Assembly: GCA_947488305.1 (NCBI GenBank)
Contig: CANKZM010000001.1
Span: forward strand, 186,001-250,000
DNA: 64,000 nucleotides
Reading direction: 5' to 3'
Source of the DNA: an uncultured Roseobacter sp.
Lineage (GTDB): Bacteria; Pseudomonadota; Alphaproteobacteria; Rhodobacterales; Rhodobacteraceae
The notes beneath the pieces are model-generated. The model had not been told where the DNA came from and made no database searches. It saw only the letters and a list, made by a program, of their open reading frames with translations. Position numbers and translations under genes: made by a program. Position 1 is the first letter of the stretch. Each line of letters opens with the position of its first letter. Shown here in pieces: positions 49,551-60,500 of this stretch.

Positions 49551-51835
<2,285 letters not shown>

Positions 51836-52365: not shown

Positions 52366-53643
52366 TTAGTCCGCAACTCTTTCGCAGGGCAAAATCGTAG
52401 GCGGCGCAGCGTTAAGCTGTTCGACTGCAAAACCTGCGGCTTCCTTGTAGGACGCCATGAACTTTTTTCGTTCCGGTGCCGGAATGACAGTTTCGATATC
52501 GTCAAAGATGCCGCCACACCTTGCATGGAGGAGATCCAGCAAGCCAAACGGTCCTGCTTCGCGATTGCGCAAGACCAGTTTTGACACAGGTGCACAAAGC
52601 TCTGAATCGTAGGCGGCTAACGCCTCTGGCGACACGCCATGGCGGATGAATTTCGCGCCAAGAACTCTGGCATCTACAACGGCTTGGCTCGCGCCGTTAG
52701 ATCCGGTTGGGTACATCGCATGCGCCGCGTCTCCCATCAACGCAACCGGTCCATCAACCCAGGTGGCGACCGGGTCGCGGTCGATCATCGGATTTTCATA
52801 GACGCAATCAGCGGCGGAAAGAAACGCCGGTACGTCAAGCCAGTCATACCTAAACTTGTCGAAATGATGGATGAAATCATCCAATTGGGCCGAGCGGAAC
52901 CAGCGATCTGGTTGCCAGCCGCTTGTGTCCTCCGCTGTCACTTCCGCGATCCAATTGATCAGCACCATGCCTTTGGCATCCGGAGGGGAAATTGGATAGA
53001 TCACCATGCGCTGCTGATGGGTGCCAAGACCCACGAATGATCCGCTCGTGCGTAGCGGTTTGGCCCGGACAGTGCCGCGCCACATAAGCGCGCCTCCCCA
53101 GTGGATTGGGGGTTGCTTCGGATGCATCTGCGCGCGAACAGAAGAATGAATGCCGTCAGCACCAATCAGCAGGCGGGCCATAAGCGTCTTTGTCTGACCA
53201 TCAGACTCTGTCACTTGAACACCGACGCCGTCCTCAAGGCGCTGGTATCCTGTCACTTTTTGCCCAAACAAGACGGCCTGCGATCCCAGACGATCTTGCA
53301 CCGCCGCATAAAGAGCCATGTGTAACGCGCCGCGATGAACAGCGTATTGCGGCCATTTATATCCAGCGGCAAGACCACGCGGTTCAACATGGACCTCTTT
53401 GCCGTTCAGGCCCAGAAGCGCCCATTCACTGGCCTCGACTCCGACGCGGTCCAGGACATCTTGGTCGAGGCCGAGGTCAAAAAGTTCGCGGACAGCATTA
53501 GGTTGCAGGTTGATACCGACCCCTAAAGGGCGCATCTCGCGCGCGCTCTCCAATACAATGCAGGATACGCCGATCTGGTGCAGTGTCAGGGCGAGCGTCA
53601 ACCCGCCAATACCGCCACCAGCGATGACAACTGGTTTGGTCAT
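52366..53643 (-). CDS. FAD-dependent monooxygenase (salicylate hydroxylase-like)
   Basis: 425 residues, class A flavoprotein hydroxylase. GxGxxG motif VIAGGGIGGLTLALTL, DG motif LLIGADGIHSSVR and GD motif ALMGDAAHAMYPTGSNGASQ. The family hydroxylates aromatic or polyene-type compounds using NAD(P)H and oxygen. No ring-cleavage gene is next to it, so the substrate is open. Faces away from the puc cluster and has a large hairpin in its leader. Confidence 0.9.
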   Translation of the reverse strand: MTKPVVIAGGGIGGLTLALTLHQIGVSCIVLESAREMRPLGVGINLQPNAVRELFDLGLDQDVLDRVGVEASEWALLGLNGKEVHVEPRGLAAGYKWPQYAVHRGALHMALYAAVQDRLGSQAVLFGQKVTGYQRLEDGVGVQVTESDGQTKTLMARLLIGADGIHSSVRAQMHPKQPPIHWGGALMWRGTVRAKPLRTSGSFVGLGTHQQRMVIYPISPPDAKGMVLINWIAEVTAEDTSGWQPDRWFRSAQLDDFIHHFDKFRYDWLDVPAFLSAADCVYENPMIDRDPVATWVDGPVALMGDAAHAMYPTGSNGASQAVVDARVLGAKFIRHGVSPEALAAYDSELCAPVSKLVLRNREAGPFGLLDLLHARCGGIFDDIETVIPAPERKKFMASYKEAAGFAVEQLNAAPPTILPCERVAD

Positions 53644-53669: not shown

Positions 53670-53701
53670 GACGGTCACGCGGGAATTTCCGGGTGACCGT
53701 C
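53670..53701. promoter_or_regulatory. Inverted repeat between the FAD monooxygenase and the repeat-protein gene
   Basis: GACGGTCAC (53670-53678) and GTGACCGTC (53693-53701), nine perfect pairs, 14-base centre. It lies 27 bases upstream of the monooxygenase ATG and downstream of the puc operon end. Either a puc terminator without T-run or an operator for the monooxygenase. Confidence 0.4.
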
Positions 53702-53808: not shown

Positions 53809-54903
53809 CTAGGCCGCGTTTGTTTTGGTATGTGGAAAGATGAAGTTCGCCATGTACTTATGCCCCGGCACGATATGTCCGAATGGGAAGTTCGCCATGT
53901 GCTTATGCCCCGGCACAATATGTCCGAAGGGGAATTTCGCCATGAACTTATGCCCGGGCACGATATGTCCGAAGGGGAATTTCGCCATAAACCTATGCCG
54001 CGGTACAATGTGGCCGAACGGGAATTTCGCCATGAACTTATGGCCCGGCACGATATGGGCGAAGGGGAATTTCGCCATGTATTTGTGACCAGGCACCAGC
54101 GAGTTCTCGCCCTGTTTGCCGTTGATGAGGAGAGGGAAGGGCCAGTTCGCCATGCGCTTGTGACCGGGTACGAGATGCGCGAAGGGGAACTTCGCCATGA
54201 ATTTGTGCCCCGGTACGATATGACCGAATGGGAACTTGGCCATGAACTTGTGGCCCGGAATCAGCAAGCCGAAGGGAAAGCGGCCGTAACGTTTGTTTCC
54301 GGGCAACAACAGGCCAATAGGCTTATCCGCCTGATGCTTATGATCAGGAATCAGGAAGTCGAAAGGAAAGCGGCCATAGCGCTTAGTCCCCGGCAACAAC
54401 AGCCCTATCGGCCAGCTCGCCATGCGTGCGTGTCTCGGGAAAACGAAACCATCTGGTGGAGGTCTGCGGATGATCAGCGGAAGCGGCCAATCCGCCATGT
54501 AATACCCGGTCGGGTTACGATCACGAGACCGGCTGAGGATCAGCGGGTGGTCCGTCAGGATAAAGTCTTTCTTGCCGGGTCTGTCTTTAACATAGACTTC
54601 CTCGACAGTATCGCCCATGTCGGCAGCGCCCATCTCAGCGGTGACCTGCCTTGTCAGTTTGGCAGCGCCGAGGGGCTTGTAGGTCGCTTTCGCAAGGAAC
54701 ACCGCACCGCCGGATTCGAGCTTTTTGGCATAGGCTTCTGCGGCTGCCTTATCAACATTCTCCGCCGTCAACTTGTCCACAAGACCATCTGGATCCGTGA
54801 AAACGCGCATGTCCTTTCTTGGGAACCGCTCGAATTGCAACCGTCTCTTGGTGGATAAGGCTTTGGATTCGCTTTCAAAATAACGCGTGATGACTTGAGT
54901 CAT
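53809..54903 (-). CDS. Repeat protein of the puc operon, 15-residue repeats, family unknown
   Basis: 364 residues, no signal peptide or membrane helix. Residues 1-115 form a soluble alpha/beta domain that loosely recalls YflT-like stress domains (YAKKLESGGAVFLAKATY, low certainty). Residues 133-358 are about thirteen tandem 15-residue units, consensus HKFMAKFPFGHIVPG, with Pro-Gly every 15 residues (216, 231, 246; 271, 286, 316, 331, 346). Early units are divergent (NKRYGRFPFGLLIPG), later ones nearly identical; one unit carries a ten-residue insertion (262-271). His occurs at positions 1 and 11 of most units. The ATG overlaps the pucC stop (ATGA), so it is coupled to LH2 assembly. Function unknown; a pigment, metal or membrane-surface binding scaffold is possible. 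Confidence 0.85.
   Translation of the reverse strand: MTQVITRYFESESKALSTKRRLQFERFPRKDMRVFTDPDGLVDKLTAENVDKAAAEAYAKKLESGGAVFLAKATYKPLGAAKLTRQVTAEMGAADMGDTVEEVYVKDRPGKKDFILTDHPLILSRSRDRNPTGYYMADWPLPLIIRRPPPDGFVFPRHARMASWPIGLLLPGTKRYGRFPFDFLIPDHKHQADKPIGLLLPGNKRYGRFPFGLLIPGHKFMAKFPFGHIVPGHKFMAKFPFAHLVPGHKRMANWPFPLLINGKQGENSLVPGHKYMAKFPFAHIVPGHKFMAKFPFGHIVPRHRFMAKFPFGHIVPGHKFMAKFPFGHIVPGHKHMANFPFGHIVPGHKYMANFIFPHTKTNAA
53830..54507 (-). repeat. 45-bp coding tandem repeat array
   Basis: Roughly thirteen 45-base units in phase with the reading frame of the puc-linked repeat protein. Neighbouring units differ mainly at third codon positions (for example gccccggcacgat against gcccgggcacgat), so the protein sequence, not the DNA, appears to be kept. 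The stretch of near-identical units covers about 53854-54252, with one longer unit. Confidence 0.88.
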
Positions 54904-56390
54904 GATACCTCCATCGGTTTTGAATGCGACTCCGTCGAGTCCATTCGACCAGCGTCCGCGTGAGACGACATGCTTGTTCCGGTGCGGTTTTTCAAAAATG
55001 GCAATGTCACGACAAGCGCGGCTGCCAGAAAGAGAACCTCAACCGAGAATACGAAATTGTAGGGCGTTTCAGGGGCGTTTCCAGTGATATGCTGCAAGCC
55101 CACGATCAAATCCCTGACGATGCCGGCAAGGGCAATACCAATGCCCGCAGCGGTCGCCTGCACAGCCCCCCACGCGCCTAGAGCCAACCCGATCTGATTT
55201 GCCGGGGCTGAGCGAATTGTTGCCGTCAGCGTCGCGTGTCCGAAAAGTCCGGTGCCAAGACCTGTTGCGAATGTCCCTGCCAGAAACAGGATGATGCTGG
55301 CCGACAGCGACGAAAGGATTATCGCGAGAAATCCGGGCATCCCGATCAAAGCGCCGACAATTGCATAGTGGATTGGAGAAGCACCCCGGCCCAAAACGCG
55401 CGAAGCGATGCCAAAGCCGATCAAGGTGCCGAGCGCAAAAAGCGCGGTCAGCTTCGTTGTGCTTGCGACAGAAAGACCAAGCACTTGGCCTCCGTAGGGC
55501 TCAAGAAGGACATCCGCCATGCCAAAGCCGAAGGTGCCAAGACCGATCACGACGAGCAACCGTATCATGCCGGGACGTCTGATAAGTGAGGTCCATGCTT
55601 CGGTAAATTGTATGGGGCGCGCAGCCTTCATTTGCTGTGCACGCGTCCGGTCTCGGGCCTCCTGTTGCCACATTGCCAGAAGATTGAGGACTGCCGTTAC
55701 GACGGCGGCGCCCTGAATGACCTGGATCAGTCGACCTGGGGTGTAATCCTCCAGTAAAGTGCCGAAGATAAGAGCGCTGAAAACCATGCCAAACAGGAGC
55801 ATGACATACATAAGCCCGACGACCTTTGGCTGGTCTTCTTCACGCACCAAGTCCGTGGCCAGCGCAAGCCCCACTGTTTGTACCGTATGGATGCCGGCAC
55901 CGACTAAAAGAAAGGACAATGCCGCTGAACCGTAGCCAAGCCAGAGCGGGGCGTCTACCGCTTCGCCATACCCGGACAGGACCAGGAGTGAAAACGGCAT
56001 GATAGCAAAGCCGCCAAACTGGTACAGAGTGCCTTTCCAGATGTAAGGCACGCGTCTGAGGCCCAAAGCAGAGACATGTACGTCAGATTTGAAGCCGATC
56101 AGGGTTCTGAAAGGCGCGAAGATCAGTGGTAGTGCAAGCATGACGGCGACCAGACTTGCAGGCACTTCAAGCTCTACAATCATCACTCGGTTGAGAGTTC
56201 CCACGATGAGAACCAGTGCCATGCCCACGGTAATTTGGAATAAGGAAAGCCGCAGCAGGCGAGACAGTGGGACCTCATCGGTCGCTACGTCGGCAAAGGG
56301 CAAGTACTTTGGCCCGATGGTTGCCAGTTTTCGCGTTGCGAATGCCCGATAGTCAAACACGTCTGATGCCATAATCCGCGCCAAACGCAT
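54900..56390 (-). CDS. pucC: Light-harvesting complex 2 assembly protein PucC
   Basis: 496 residues, about twelve membrane helices, BCH/PucC branch of the major facilitator superfamily; needed for assembly of LH2, possibly by delivering bacteriochlorophyll. Marks: LSLFQITVGMALVLIVGTLNR in helix 1, FAPFRTLIGFKSDVH, GLRRVPYIWKGTLYQFGGFA and GHATLTATIRSA. ATG 56390 (MRLARIMASD) is used; ATG 56372 is close behind, and the frame is open to 56450, across the terminator. Its final residues are polar (SHADAGRMDSTESHSKPMEVS), and the stop overlaps the repeat-protein start. Confidence 0.93.
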   Translation of the reverse strand: MRLARIMASDVFDYRAFATRKLATIGPKYLPFADVATDEVPLSRLLRLSLFQITVGMALVLIVGTLNRVMIVELEVPASLVAVMLALPLIFAPFRTLIGFKSDVHVSALGLRRVPYIWKGTLYQFGGFAIMPFSLLVLSGYGEAVDAPLWLGYGSAALSFLLVGAGIHTVQTVGLALATDLVREEDQPKVVGLMYVMLLFGMVFSALIFGTLLEDYTPGRLIQVIQGAAVVTAVLNLLAMWQQEARDRTRAQQMKAARPIQFTEAWTSLIRRPGMIRLLVVIGLGTFGFGMADVLLEPYGGQVLGLSVASTTKLTALFALGTLIGFGIASRVLGRGASPIHYAIVGALIGMPGFLAIILSSLSASIILFLAGTFATGLGTGLFGHATLTATIRSAPANQIGLALGAWGAVQATAAGIGIALAGIVRDLIVGLQHITGNAPETPYNFVFSVEVLFLAAALVVTLPFLKNRTGTSMSSHADAGRMDSTESHSKPMEVS

Positions 56391-56415
56391 CGCGCCTGCA
56401 CGTTCCCCTGCGGTG

Positions 56416-56448
56416 AAAAAGAGGGCCCGCCGAAATCTCCGGCGGGCC
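56416..56448 (-). terminator. Terminator/attenuator between pucA and pucC
   Basis: GGCCCGCCG (56424-56432) pairs with CGGCGGGCC (56440-56448), nine perfect pairs, seven-base loop. Read in the puc direction it starts five bases after the pucA stop and is followed by CTCTTTTTC. It should end most transcripts after pucBA and let a minority reach pucC, matching the need for much more antenna peptide than assembly factor. Confidence 0.82.
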
Positions 56449-56453
56449 AACTG

Positions 56454-56807
56454 CTATTGCGATACTATCGAATAGGTCTCGGCCGCTGATGCGGCCGCAT
56501 GAACTTCTGGCGGTTGCAGGATCGCCTTGACCGGCGTTCCGTCCGACAGAATGATGGTCACTTCGCGTGCGCCATCTGTTCCATCCATTGTGTAAGAGGC
56601 TTTCGCCGCATCCGGATTGTCCAGAAGCGTCGCTGACGCTGTCTGCTCACCGGATCCAAGCTCTTGACCTGACAAGAAGTCGGATACCCAGGTGGTATTG
56701 CTGAGCACCGCAACGTGTACGGCAAAGGAGCCGACAGCAACTGCACTCAAGAATAGCGGCACACCTACGGTCGGCTTAACAACGAGCCACATCTTTGCAT
56801 TATTCAT
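56454..56807 (-). CDS. pucA: Light-harvesting 2 alpha polypeptide PucA with long C-terminal extension
   Basis: 117 residues; typical LH2 alpha chains are 50-60. Residues 1-47 are a classic alpha subunit: MNNAKMWLVVKPTVGVPLFL, bacteriochlorophyll ligand H31 in AVHVAVL, and TTWVSDFL. Positions 44-45 are Phe-Leu, where B850 proteins have aromatic pairs (Tyr-Trp or Tyr-Tyr) that hydrogen-bond the pigment; the same Phe-Leu pair occurs in the blue-shifted B800-820 complex of Rhodoblastus/Rps. acidophila. Residues 48-117 are an acidic, Ala/Thr-rich periplasmic tail with an amphipathic beta stretch (REVTIILSDGTPVKAIL). AAAGGAG before ATG. Confidence 0.93.
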   Translation of the reverse strand: MNNAKMWLVVKPTVGVPLFLSAVAVGSFAVHVAVLSNTTWVSDFLSGQELGSGEQTASATLLDNPDAAKASYTMDGTDGAREVTIILSDGTPVKAILQPPEVHAAASAAETYSIVSQ

Positions 56808-56820
56808 GAAGTGCTCCTTT

Positions 56821-56976
56821 CTATCCCAACCAAGGTGTCGCCGCAGCGACCAATACATGGGCTAGCAACGCGATCGCGCCAAAAACGCGCGTTCCGTCGA
56901 TGAGGTAGCTATGCACCTCTTCAGCCTCTTCCAAGGTCAGACCTGTCGGCCATACCTTGTCTTCATTCTCCGCCAT
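56821..56976 (-). CDS. pucB: Light-harvesting 2 beta polypeptide PucB
   Basis: 51 residues, short single-span antenna peptide: [20 protein letters not shown], then H22 in EVHSYL and H40 in LLAHVLV, 18 residues apart as in canonical LH2 beta (pigment contacts of B800 and B850), ending TPWLG. GGAGG precedes the ATG. 13 bases separate its stop from pucA. Together with PucA it forms the ring antenna in the photosynthetic membrane. Confidence 0.95.
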
Positions 56977-57278
56977 ATCCGGTCCTCCGCTAGCGACGTA
57001 AGAAAGCGATCCCGAACATCATGCCATGTTCGCCCGCCCGAAATATGCGCACTGTTCAAAAGATGTCATGCAAAGTTGACATTATCAAGTGTAAATTTAA
57101 TATTACATATTTGCTTGATGCCGGTTTTGTCGCCCAATGACCAAAAAATTGGCATCCAGGAAGTCCTCTCTCACTGAAATTTAGACAGTTAATTCAGAGC
57201 ACTGAACGCAGGCTTGGCCAGTCGAGCTGCCGAGTATCTGAGGTTAGACTTCTACGTGGCCTACAAATCTTTGTGGTG
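56977..57278. other. puc promoter region
   Basis: About 300 bases between pucB and the lipoprotein gene. 56977-57063 is the pucB leader; 57064-57107 holds the PpsR sites and a possible -35. From 57108 to 57278 I see no gene; it is the region downstream of the Mla operon and would also hold upstream puc elements. Confidence 0.7.
57064..57107 (-). promoter_or_regulatory. Tandem PpsR/CrtJ binding sites at the puc promoter
   Basis: Two perfect TGT-N12-ACA palindromes: 57064-57081 (TGT CATGCAAAGTTG ACA) and 57090-57107 (TGT AAATTTAATATT ACA), eight bases apart. On the puc strand a TTGATA hexamer occupies the spacer (57088-57083) and CATCTT follows 17 bases later, a possible promoter covered by the repressor. 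PpsR/CrtJ represses photosystem genes in oxygen and light. Confidence 0.85.
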
Positions 57279-57977
57279 CTAGTTCGGCGCCGGCAAGGAT
57301 TCGGGAGGGGCCGCGAAGGGGTCCACTGCCTTCGGACGGGCGCTCGCGTGCGCATGAACGCGTCGGATGCTCCATTCCACGGCGTCCCGCATGACATCCC
57401 CCAAGGCTTCATCGAATGACTGGACGATATCCGCTGGCGCATCACTCTGGGAGCGGACCTTCTCCTCAAAGCTTTTGGACGCAATGATTGCGTCGTCCAG
57501 ATCGTAAACAATCTTGAGGTTGATGCCGACAAGCACGTCCAGTGCTTCGTCCGGTGTGTCATCGCGCGGCAAGATCGCTTGAAATTCACGCACGTCGGTG
57601 ACGATGACGTAGTCGGCGCGGAGCGCCACAGAGGATTTGCCAATGGCAGTTACACGTCCAGTGTTTTCAAAACTCTCGACCAAAAGCGCCTGAACGATCA
57701 GCGGTGCGCGGTCGACCCAACGCGCCTGTGGCAGATATTGCACCTGCAAGGGTGTCGGCTGGATGACAATCTGATCGGTGTCGACTGCTGCTGTAGCCGT
57801 CGGCTCGTTTAACACAATCTGCTGACTGATGCGCGGAAGTGAAGATGAAAACGTGCTCTTGGGTGTTAATGCGTAAAGATCGTAGGGCTGCGCTGCTCGA
57901 TTCAAAGTACCCAAACCCGTGCAACCGGATGCGACAAGACCAGCGGCGATTGCCATAGTCAGCAGCATTTTTTTCAT
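57279..57977 (-). CDS. ABC-type transport auxiliary lipoprotein (PqiC/MlaC-like component)
   Basis: 232 residues with a lipoprotein signal peptide (MKKMLLTMAIAAGLVASG, lipobox VASGC, lipidated Cys 19). Belongs to the ABC_trans_aux family, outer-membrane or periplasmic lipoproteins that accompany MCE transporters. C-terminus is proline- and alanine-rich. The ATG overlaps the MCE gene stop (ATGA). Last gene of the operon; no clear terminator seen. Confidence 0.86.
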   Translation of the reverse strand: MKKMLLTMAIAAGLVASGCTGLGTLNRAAQPYDLYALTPKSTFSSSLPRISQQIVLNEPTATAAVDTDQIVIQPTPLQVQYLPQARWVDRAPLIVQALLVESFENTGRVTAIGKSSVALRADYVIVTDVREFQAILPRDDTPDEALDVLVGINLKIVYDLDDAIIASKSFEEKVRSQSDAPADIVQSFDEALGDVMRDAVEWSIRRVHAHASARPKAVDPFAAPPESLPAPN

Positions 57978-59689
57978 CTGTTGAACTCCGATCCTTGTGT
58001 GCCCAAAAGAAACCGTGCGGGGTCTCGTTCCACCCGGTTGACCAAACGCTCAAGATTTACGACGAGACGGCGGCTTTCTTCGATGAAGCGTTGAAACTGG
58101 GGCAAACCAACACGGAGGAAATCAGACGCCTGGCGTCTGTTTTGCTGCACAATGCCGCTAACAGTGCCTAGCAGCTCAGCTGCAGATTGCGACGCGCTGA
58201 GCACTTCGGTCGAAATGGTTTCTGCGTTCGCTGAAACGTTCTCCATGGTGGTGGAAAAAACATCAACTGCGGACCTGACATCTGTGATGATGGTGCTGAA
58301 GTCCTGATCCACGACACGGTTGATCGAAGAGAAGGCACCGTCGGCGGTGGTCAGCGTTGCTTCGGCCGCGGTCATTGCACCGGTTATGGCTGTAAGCGTT
58401 TCGTTAGCGGTTGCGAATGTCTCTGTCGCAGTGGTGAGCGTTTCGCGCCCCACGTCCGTAAGGGCTGATACGTCGCTCGCCGTGTTTGACACGTCTTCGC
58501 CAACATTGGTGATCACGCTGTTTGCATTCTGGGCAGCTTCACGCAACTCATCGAACAAGGCCGGCAAGTCATCTTGAACGGTGGTGTTGATCGTCCCCAG
58601 AGCCTTCGCAGCCTCGGTGCTGGCGGCTTCAAATGCTGCCAATGCGCCCTCGCTTTGTTGCAACCGTTCCTGAGCTGTGACGCCCACCGCTTCATATTGG
58701 GTGATCAGGGTCGAGGCGCGATCCCCCAACGTATTGACTTGCGTTTCGACCGAGGCTGCTGCCCTTTTCAGTTCATTCGTAAGATCAGGTATTCTGGTGT
58801 CCAAAAGGTCGCGCGCCGCCGCTACAGCCTCAGTTGCTGTTGGGCCGATCTCGTTGACCGTAGTGTTGATCGCTTCGACGGCCTCGCGACCTGAGGCGAT
58901 GATTTCCGCGATTTCGTTCTGCATGAGGGCATCGGCTGTGGCAAAGGCCGCGCTGGCTGTGTCGAGTGTACCGACCGCCGTTCCGGCGGCATCCTGCACG
59001 ACGCCAAGAGACTGCGTGGCGGTTTTCAAAGTGGTATCCGCTGTATCTGCGAGCTGATCCAACCTGTCCGTGAAAGCCGCAATACGTTGCGCAGCGCCTC
59101 CGAGGTCAGCCGACAGCGATTCAAAGTCTTCCAGCGTGCGATCCAACCTGCCGGACGCGCGCGCCAGATTTTCCAACAAGGCATTGACCGCTGCGCGGTT
59201 GTCATCATTTACAACGGTTTGCAGATCTTCGAGCAGTCGCACTGCGCGATCCAATACGGCGGGCGCGCCCTCAAAAATGGTTTGCAAGGCGCTCCGTTCA
59301 CTCCGGATGACACCAAAAGGTTCAAGGGCAGGGGCATCGGCCGAGCCCCCTGTCAGTCCCACAAAGTTTACGCCCGTCACCCCCTGTCCCTGCAGCTGCG
59401 CAACGGTATCCGAATTGATCGGCGTCTCAGCATTCACTTCTATCCGGACGCGCACCTTTGACGGATCGTCTTCATCCAGATCAAGTGCGATGACCTGACC
59501 CACTGGCAGCCCGTTGAACCGCACATCGCTTGCGGTTCCCAGACCGGAGACACTATCAAAAAGAATGTCGTAATAACTGTACTGCCGACTGACTTCGGCA
59601 TTTGCGAGCCACAATAGAAAGCCGAAGATCGCAACGATCCCCGCAATCGTGAAGGCCCCAATAAGGATATAGTTGGCTCGTGTTTCCAT
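57974..59689 (-). CDS. MCE-domain protein of a lipid ABC transporter (MlaD/PqiB-like), long coiled coil
   Basis: 571 residues. One N-terminal membrane helix (NYILIGAFTIAGIVAIFGFLL), one MCE domain at about 40-115 (ILFDSVSGLGTASDVRFNGL, then GVTGVNFVGLTGG), and roughly 400 residues of Ala/Thr-rich helical heptads ending near 530. The long helix may form a periplasmic tube or needle that spans toward the outer membrane, as in PqiB-type proteins. ATG 59689 (METRANY) chosen over 59707. Carries lipids between membranes. Confidence 0.87.
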   Translation of the reverse strand: METRANYILIGAFTIAGIVAIFGFLLWLANAEVSRQYSYYDILFDSVSGLGTASDVRFNGLPVGQVIALDLDEDDPSKVRVRIEVNAETPINSDTVAQLQGQGVTGVNFVGLTGGSADAPALEPFGVIRSERSALQTIFEGAPAVLDRAVRLLEDLQTVVNDDNRAAVNALLENLARASGRLDRTLEDFESLSADLGGAAQRIAAFTDRLDQLADTADTTLKTATQSLGVVQDAAGTAVGTLDTASAAFATADALMQNEIAEIIASGREAVEAINTTVNEIGPTATEAVAAARDLLDTRIPDLTNELKRAAASVETQVNTLGDRASTLITQYEAVGVTAQERLQQSEGALAAFEAASTEAAKALGTINTTVQDDLPALFDELREAAQNANSVITNVGEDVSNTASDVSALTDVGRETLTTATETFATANETLTAITGAMTAAEATLTTADGAFSSINRVVDQDFSTIITDVRSAVDVFSTTMENVSANAETISTEVLSASQSAAELLGTVSGIVQQNRRQASDFLRVGLPQFQRFIEESRRLVVNLERLVNRVERDPARFLLGTQGSEFNR

Positions 59690-59693
59690 GCTC

Positions 59694-60500
59694 TTATCCG
59701 CCACCATAGACTTTTTTCTGGGCAGCGCGAGCCCGCGGTCCGGTGAAGTATTCCTTTATCCATGGATGATCAATTGATGTCATGGTGTCGATCGGACCTT
59801 CGATCAGTACCTTACGTTCAGCCAGCACGGCAACACGGTCACAGATCGCATAAAGGCTATCAAGATCGTGCGTTACCATGAAGACAGTCAGTCCAAGCGA
59901 GCCCTGCAACTCCTTGATCAGTTCATCATATGCAGCGGCACCAATGGGATCGAGTCCAGCGGTGGGCTCATCCAAAAAAACGATCTGTGGGTCCAGGGCG
60001 AGGGCGCGGGCAAGTGCTGCACGTTTCACCATGCCGCCCGACAATTCGGATGGGTATTTGCTGCAACTGTTCATTGGCAGACCGACAAGATCCATCTTCA
60101 GTTTGCCCAAGGACTGCATCAGCCCTTCGGAGATTTTCAGATGTTCGCGCATCGGGGCCATGATGTTCTGCAAGACCGTCAGCGATGAAAACAGAGCCCC
60201 GTTCTGAAACGCCACGCCCCAGGCTTTTTCGATTTGATTCCGTTCCAGTTCAGAGCCGTTCACAACATCGACACCCAACACCTCAATACTGCCCTTTGCC
60301 GGTGTGTTTAACCCGACGATGGTCCGCAGCAGAACCGATTTGCCGGTCCCGGACCCGCCGACAACTCCAAGGACCTCACCGCGCCACACATCAAGGTTCA
60401 GATTGTCGTGGACAACTTGCGGCCCGAAAGCGTTTCGCAATCCACGCACCTTGATGATCGCATCCTGCCGATCTGCTGGGTTATCGGAGCGGTCAGTCAC
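59694..60500 (-). CDS. Lipid ABC transporter ATP-binding protein (MlaF-like)
   Basis: 268 residues. Walker A GGSGTGKSVLL, signature LSGGMVKRAALARAL (Met-Val-Lys is the MlaF/MKL type), Walker B IVFLDEPTAGLDPIG, switch MVTHDLD. N-terminal MTDRSDNPADRQDAIIKV. Overlaps the permease (ATGA) and lies four bases upstream of the MCE gene. It drives retrograde or anterograde phospholipid movement with the permease. Confidence 0.9.
   Translation of the reverse strand: MTDRSDNPADRQDAIIKVRGLRNAFGPQVVHDNLNLDVWRGEVLGVVGGSGTGKSVLLRTIVGLNTPAKGSIEVLGVDVVNGSELERNQIEKAWGVAFQNGALFSSLTVLQNIMAPMREHLKISEGLMQSLGKLKMDLVGLPMNSCSKYPSELSGGMVKRAALARALALDPQIVFLDEPTAGLDPIGAAAYDELIKELQGSLGLTVFMVTHDLDSLYAICDRVAVLAERKVLIEGPIDTMTSIDHPWIKEYFTGPRARAAQKKVYGGG

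Follow-up and report, generated by a model that had tools for sequence, protein, structure and literature searches.

A PucDE-type protein with an expanded repeat tail, encoded directly after pucC, is a likely strap of the LH2 antenna

Introduction

Two described systems come closest to the gene studied here. The first is the gamma polypeptide of the LH2 antenna of Rhodopseudomonas palustris. In the excerpted text of PMC9618040, gamma is an extended ribbon within the plane of the membrane that covers six of the nine alpha/beta units, and each of its repeats ligates a bacteriochlorophyll (BChl) through a Ser, with a mean spacing of 27.6 Å. The same excerpt reports this ribbon solely in Rhodopseudomonas and leaves its partial cover of the ring unexplained. 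The gamma chain (RPA1495; PDB 7zcu_S, 7zdi, 7ze3, 7ze8) has 97 residues and six repeats. The second is pucDE, which is named within the Rhodobacter capsulatus puc operon in the parts of PMC9603517 and PMC4634722 that deal with it. For Dinoroseobacter shibae, the portion of PMC10890935 concerned also describes a puc operon, made up of four loci (Dshi_2897-2900).

The present gene lies in a 64,000-nucleotide stretch of an uncultured Roseobacter sp. (contig CANKZM010000001.1), hereafter the window. An earlier note, made from the letters alone, had proposed an undescribed repeat protein linked to LH2. The gene is real, conserved and linked to LH2, and its product is an expanded version of the PucDE kind. 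Genomes and loci of our sets are cited below by G and L numbers.

Genomic context of the fourth puc gene

The long-form pucDE-type gene (53809..54903, minus strand) is a 364-residue open reading frame, preceded by GGAGG, that encodes a small folded N-terminal domain and a repeat tail. It overlaps by ATGA with pucC (54900..56450, minus strand), the LH2 assembly protein gene (PF03209), whose start codon is putative. Further upstream are pucA (56454..56807, minus strand), encoding a 117-residue LH2 alpha, and pucB (56821..56976, minus strand), encoding a 51-residue LH2 beta, both with start codons set by eye. The order on the minus strand is pucB, pucA, pucC, 364-residue gene; the reading frame, its overlap with pucC and its place as fourth gene of the operon are as first proposed.

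Two tandem TGT-N12-ACA sites of the CrtJ/PpsR type are located upstream of pucB (57064..57107), following the consensus in the cited portion of PMC10890935. The whole window holds 10 such sites against 11.3 expected by chance, and the tandem placing alone is notable. An inverted repeat with 16-nt arms, 88% complementary (53670..53701), follows the 364-residue gene and is the likely end of the operon; the 61 nt around this hairpin have a folding z of -3.45. The operon's neighbours, a katG-like peroxidase (49592-51832), an FAD monooxygenase (52369-53643) and a pair of MlaD and ABC auxiliary lipoprotein genes (57282-59707), have no apparent link to LH2.

The LH2 alpha of the window (56454-56807) carries F44-L45 and a C-terminal extension. 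We take F44-L45 to be the mark of the LH3, B800-820 type. F-L is the commonest pair at alpha residues 44-45 among the named loci with a readable alpha, and its occurrence with both long and short tails rules out a tie between tail type and these residues.

Organization of the repeat tail

The tail comprises residues 136-364 (53812..54498, minus strand) and contains 14 units, near the count of about 13 given earlier, arranged as one of 25 residues, six of 15, one of 25, five of 15 and one of 14. The central 25-residue unit, MANWPFPLLINGKQGENSLVPGHKY (54079..54153, minus strand), is found mid-array in the window protein and in all 20 other long members scanned. From the unit sequences, we read the 15-residue unit as the 25-residue unit of the relatives minus about ten residues (ISRRKPFTGS-like).

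The Pro-Gly pairs, previously called strict, are regular and are replaced in places by PD, PR or NG. Likewise, the pairing of His holds for seven of the eleven 15-residue units, which have two (GHIVPGH type); of the first four, the first and third lack His, the second has two, both at its end, and the fourth has one. Ser is present in 1 of the 11. Residues 136-364 contain 21 His and 31 Lys or Arg against 6 Asp or Glu, residues 116-364 have a pI of 11.0, and the mass of the whole protein is 41 kDa. No LHC domain (PF00556) was detected in the window protein, and its highest 19-residue hydropathy is 0.75.

Comparison of the eleven 15-residue units with one another (825 codon comparisons) gave differences of 0.27, 0.25 and 0.57 at codon positions 1, 2 and 3, and a median dN/dS of 0.22 in the 29 of 55 pairs that were computable, the other 26 being saturated. 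Between the tail of the window and that of L105, which has an identical unit layout, dN is 0.17 and dS 2.9. The tails of the closer pair L105 and L081 give a dN of 0.030 and a dS of 0.785, with gene conversion possible. The third-position divergence noticed earlier is thus borne out, and the amino-acid pattern of the tail is under purifying selection.

Predicted structure and N-terminal domain

An AlphaFold prediction was made for the single chain on 50 sequences. Residues 1-110 (54574..54903, minus strand) form a predicted alpha/beta domain, with block means of pLDDT of 92-98 for residues 1-100 and 86 for residues 101-110. Its elements follow the order strand-helix-strand-helix-helix-strand-helix-strand. 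A Foldseek search with the predicted model returned no match at E≤0.001, and calling the fold ferredoxin-like is thus our own reading of the element order. In the tail, pLDDT is mostly below 50, and the model places only three helices of 4-5 residues there and no strand. As modelled for the isolated chain, the tail shows no regular repeated secondary structure, which does not support the regular solenoid or beta-hairpin stack of the earlier note. A tail that lacks a predicted fold is as expected of a ribbon ordered only on its partner; the same prediction could also mean plain disorder.

We searched for families related to the N-terminal domain. The window protein fits none of the Pfam and NCBIfam models (best Pfam E-value 0.72, far under the cut-off) and has no match at the gathering cut-off of YflT (PF11181). 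A Pfam search with 36 homologues at E≤0.1 found YflT in four members (best 0.0029); four families with a single member each (best 2C_adapt, 1.8e-4) were taken as chance. NCBIfam gave three single-member matches among 50 members, with a best E-value of 0.025. A profile of 36 members, A1, matches Pfam-called YflT proteins in parts of its positions 1-100, and two of the four of these tested pass the Pfam cut-off. These proteins differ from the family by a glycine-rich insert and by having no repeat tail. By sequence, the N-terminal domain thus looks distantly YflT-like.

At class level, A1 matched 17 of 385 genomes. Apart from G000, these are six in which puc genes adjoin the match (L150, L151, L152, L153, L155 and L158) and ten in which the match is short, N-terminal and in a protein of different make-up. 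One genome, G392 (L151), has a pucA-like gene and no reaction-centre match at 84% completeness. Reaction-centre genes are present in 8 of 17 matched genomes (the 16 class-level genomes without G000, plus G058). Taken alone, the N-terminal domain is thus not confined to phototrophs.

Sequence searches of the PDB with the window protein, A1 and the R. capsulatus protein returned nothing relevant; the best matches of A1, designed TIM barrels (1.7e-4 over 26-27 positions), were discarded. In a plasmid collection, 561 records matched the window protein, all below 60% identity, and were taken as repeat-on-repeat noise; the 20 listed have 19-23% identity and are mostly LPD7/TraC proteins of Enterobacteria. 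No record of that collection matched the R. capsulatus protein.

Distribution and gene order

Among 295 Rhodobacteraceae genomes, 35 match the window protein, its own genome included, and 36 match A1. Homologues mostly away from phototrophs would have spoken against the earlier proposal; reaction-centre genes occur in 122 of the 295 genomes, including all 35 with a window-protein match (hypergeometric P 1.4e-15). We also searched the 295 genomes with the PucC of the window, keeping matches at E≤1e-100, a threshold at which short LH2-type pucC fragments could be missed. Among the matches listed, an LH2-type PucC scoring at least 544 bits was found in 38 genomes, and the paralogue scored at most 452 bits. 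G126, with a broken pucC (77% identity over 271 residues), was counted as the 39th LH2-type genome. The family is present in 35 of these 39 genomes and in 1 of the 256 others, as judged among the PucC matches listed. In this single genome, G058, the match is weak, N-terminal and without adjoining puc genes. The family therefore follows LH2 and not phototrophy as such, in agreement with the link to LH2 first proposed.

All 35 genomes matched by the window protein carry a copy immediately 3' of pucC, which in G022 is seen only as a fragment at a contig end. Of the 38 regions examined, 34 have the member immediately 3' of pucC and in the same orientation; these include L058, where pucC is a contig-end fragment, and L044, where it is broken. 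L032 and L041 have their members elsewhere, in genomes that also carry pucC-adjacent copies (L066 and L067), and L065 and L068 are contig-end fragments. We then counted members at 80 named pucC loci, the top-ranking of at least 581 confirmed candidates; this set is biased to close relatives and overlaps the 295 genomes. The count of homologues beside pucC, which the earlier note had suggested, came to 75 of these 80, with 68 following pucC in the same orientation and 7 upstream on the other strand.

No member was found near pucC in four of the 39 LH2-type genomes (G051, G091, G111 and G252), or in the stretches examined at five of the 80 loci (L084, L137, L141, L147 and L148), which are three Rhodovulum loci, Tateyamaria pelophila and one Woeseiaceae MAG. 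These memberless genomes and loci indicate that LH2 can probably dispense with the protein.

The seven members on the other strand (L117, L119, L120, L122, L124, L134 and L143) come from loci most of which are titled outside Rhodobacteraceae, and several have PFSSLFGxPLL-like units. Short and long members occur together in three genomes, G235 (L039), G001 (L066/L032) and G185 (L067/L041), and in G235 they stand in tandem after pucC. At L044 (G126) and L107 (Rhodobacter aestuarii), the member is split by a frame change, as is pucC in G126; the split members could reflect decay or assembly error.

Relationship to R. capsulatus PucDE and divergence of the tails

In R. capsulatus SP108 (L095), a 232-residue member is found directly after pucC; from its position, this reading frame would be pucDE. 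Profile A1 matches its product at 1.7e-57 over positions 1-226, L095 not being among the A1 rows listed. A two-sequence blastp comparison with the window protein gave 30% identity over 220 columns (E 2e-18), the tail part being weak. An internal Met115 in the L095 protein would yield a 118-residue tail of 13.5 kDa. PucE is reportedly a 14-kDa third polypeptide, or gamma, in purified R. capsulatus LH2, and the loss of pucDE is said to lower LH2 in this species. The size of the Met115 tail matches that of PucE, which points to the R. capsulatus tail as the LH2-bound part, if these data hold. No paper dealing with the long form, or with the biochemistry of PucE, came up in our search of the open-licence literature. 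The window gene is thus undescribed in the sense of having no Pfam or NCBIfam match, and less so in view of this homologue, pucDE by position.

In a tree of the N-terminal domains of 83 sequences, the 28 long members form one clade (FastTree support 0.96), so that the expansion arose once in this sample. All 18 complete pure 25-residue arrays have nine units each (14 as counted by script; L077, L033, L036 and L041 after one missed unit was read by eye), and all five complete 15-residue arrays have fourteen. Hybrid arrays occur in L086, with ten units, and in L133, with thirteen. Whatever the unit length, 82-95 residues follow the central unit in 19 of the 21 long members scanned, with 73 in L086 and L088 cut by its contig. 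In the excerpt of PMC9618040, the LH2 rings have nine alpha/beta pairs, a number that agrees with the nine units and not with the fourteen, which is a lead and not a proof; the constant unit number may be explained by shared descent.

The two parts of the window protein have different closest relatives. Its N-terminal domain is closest to 25-residue members, with 73.6% identity to L033 of the same genus and 43.2% in the tail. Its tail is closest to 15-residue members, with 78.8% identity to L105 (N-terminal domain 41.3%) and 76.0% to L032 (42.5%). In the tree, members of the 15-residue type are scattered over several separate positions, a pattern that points to exchange of tails or to repeated compaction.

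Discussion

The gene probably encodes an extended LH2 strap of the PucDE/PucE kind, in which the tail has expanded from about four units to fourteen. The strap mechanism itself is likely, by inference from the data above. The N-terminal domain would stay on the cytoplasmic side and would help to deliver the protein, together with PucC, to nascent LH2. The repeat tail would lie along the LH2 ring and would hold or stabilise it, perhaps seating extra bacteriochlorophyll.

A more general picture is tentative, and we regard it as doubtful. A family of straps would sit on the rings of most LH2-bearing Rhodobacteraceae and other Alphaproteobacteria, PucE and Rps. palustris gamma being two of its forms. 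The strap of the long clade would round the whole ring, its nine 25-residue units against nine alpha/beta pairs, and the 15-residue form of the window, with His for Ser, would carry a belt of extra ligated bacteriochlorophyll.

An assembly chaperone or scaffold seems an unlikely role. Such a protein would act with PucC, its tail aligning several alpha/beta units before ring closure, and would be absent from mature LH2. The translational overlap with pucC and the near-constant place beside it agree with this role, and a near-fixed array of nine 25-residue or fourteen 15-residue units could serve as a ruler. However, purified R. capsulatus LH2 is said to contain PucE as a 14-kDa polypeptide, which agrees with the size of the tail in this species. 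We consider it improbable that the protein organises the membrane, its basic tail binding lipid head groups and tethering neighbouring LH2 rings or shaping the membrane. The very basic composition is in line with this, as are the fourteen units, which exceed the nine alpha/beta pairs in the PMC9618040 excerpt and could let one tail span more than one ring, but such a role is not required by the short homologues, which have about four units. Finally, a pigment or metal store independent of LH2 structure, with the His ladder binding bacteriochlorophyll, haem or metal, would use the 21 His of residues 136-364 but is very improbable, since His is missing from the units of short homologues, that of R. 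capsulatus among them, and the matching place is mostly taken by Gly, so that His cannot be the general function of the family.

If pucDE-type proteins are gamma-like straps, most LH2 complexes of the group have an uncounted subunit. Unit number could then be compared with ring size, and the named gene of R. capsulatus would offer a ready genetic test.

The comparison with Rps. palustris gamma supports the preferred strap reading in some features and not in others. Both chains are built of tandem repeats, 16 residues in gamma and 15 in the window, with an x-P-L-I/L core. Both genes are associated with puc genes, RPA1495 being near a puc pair by locus number (pucBAe RPA1491/1492). Gamma is an extended chain, and the window tail has no predicted fold in a low-confidence model. 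In contrast to the window protein, gamma has no N-terminal domain, and the Ser that ligates BChl in each of its repeats (SGxPLI) is absent from 10 of the 11 15-residue units. The likeness of motif was spotted before being tested. Of 2000 shuffles and 2000 period permutations, 1 and 5, respectively, scored as well against gamma with a first unit profile (38 and 12 for the best single unit). With a second profile, from tails outside Rhodobacterales, 1137 and 640 of 2000 were as good (64 and 40 for the best single unit). The two profiles disagree and the Ser ligand is missing; membership of the gamma family by sequence is not claimed. PDB sequence searches with the window protein or A1 did not match gamma, and a search for a gamma gene in the family of G441 found it in 0 of 17, with no known Rhodopseudomonas among the 17.

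The likeness to PucDE/PucE extends over the whole protein. In both species, the gene directly follows pucC and encodes an N-terminal domain followed by tail units of the W/F-x-x-P-L-L type, with homology over both parts. The R. capsulatus protein has about four irregular units, counted by eye, without His and a mass of 25 kDa, whereas that of the window has fourteen, mostly of 15 residues with two His, and 41 kDa. Thus, the gene is new in part: a divergent homologue after pucC was already known in R. capsulatus, and what is added here is the expanded, many-repeat tail.
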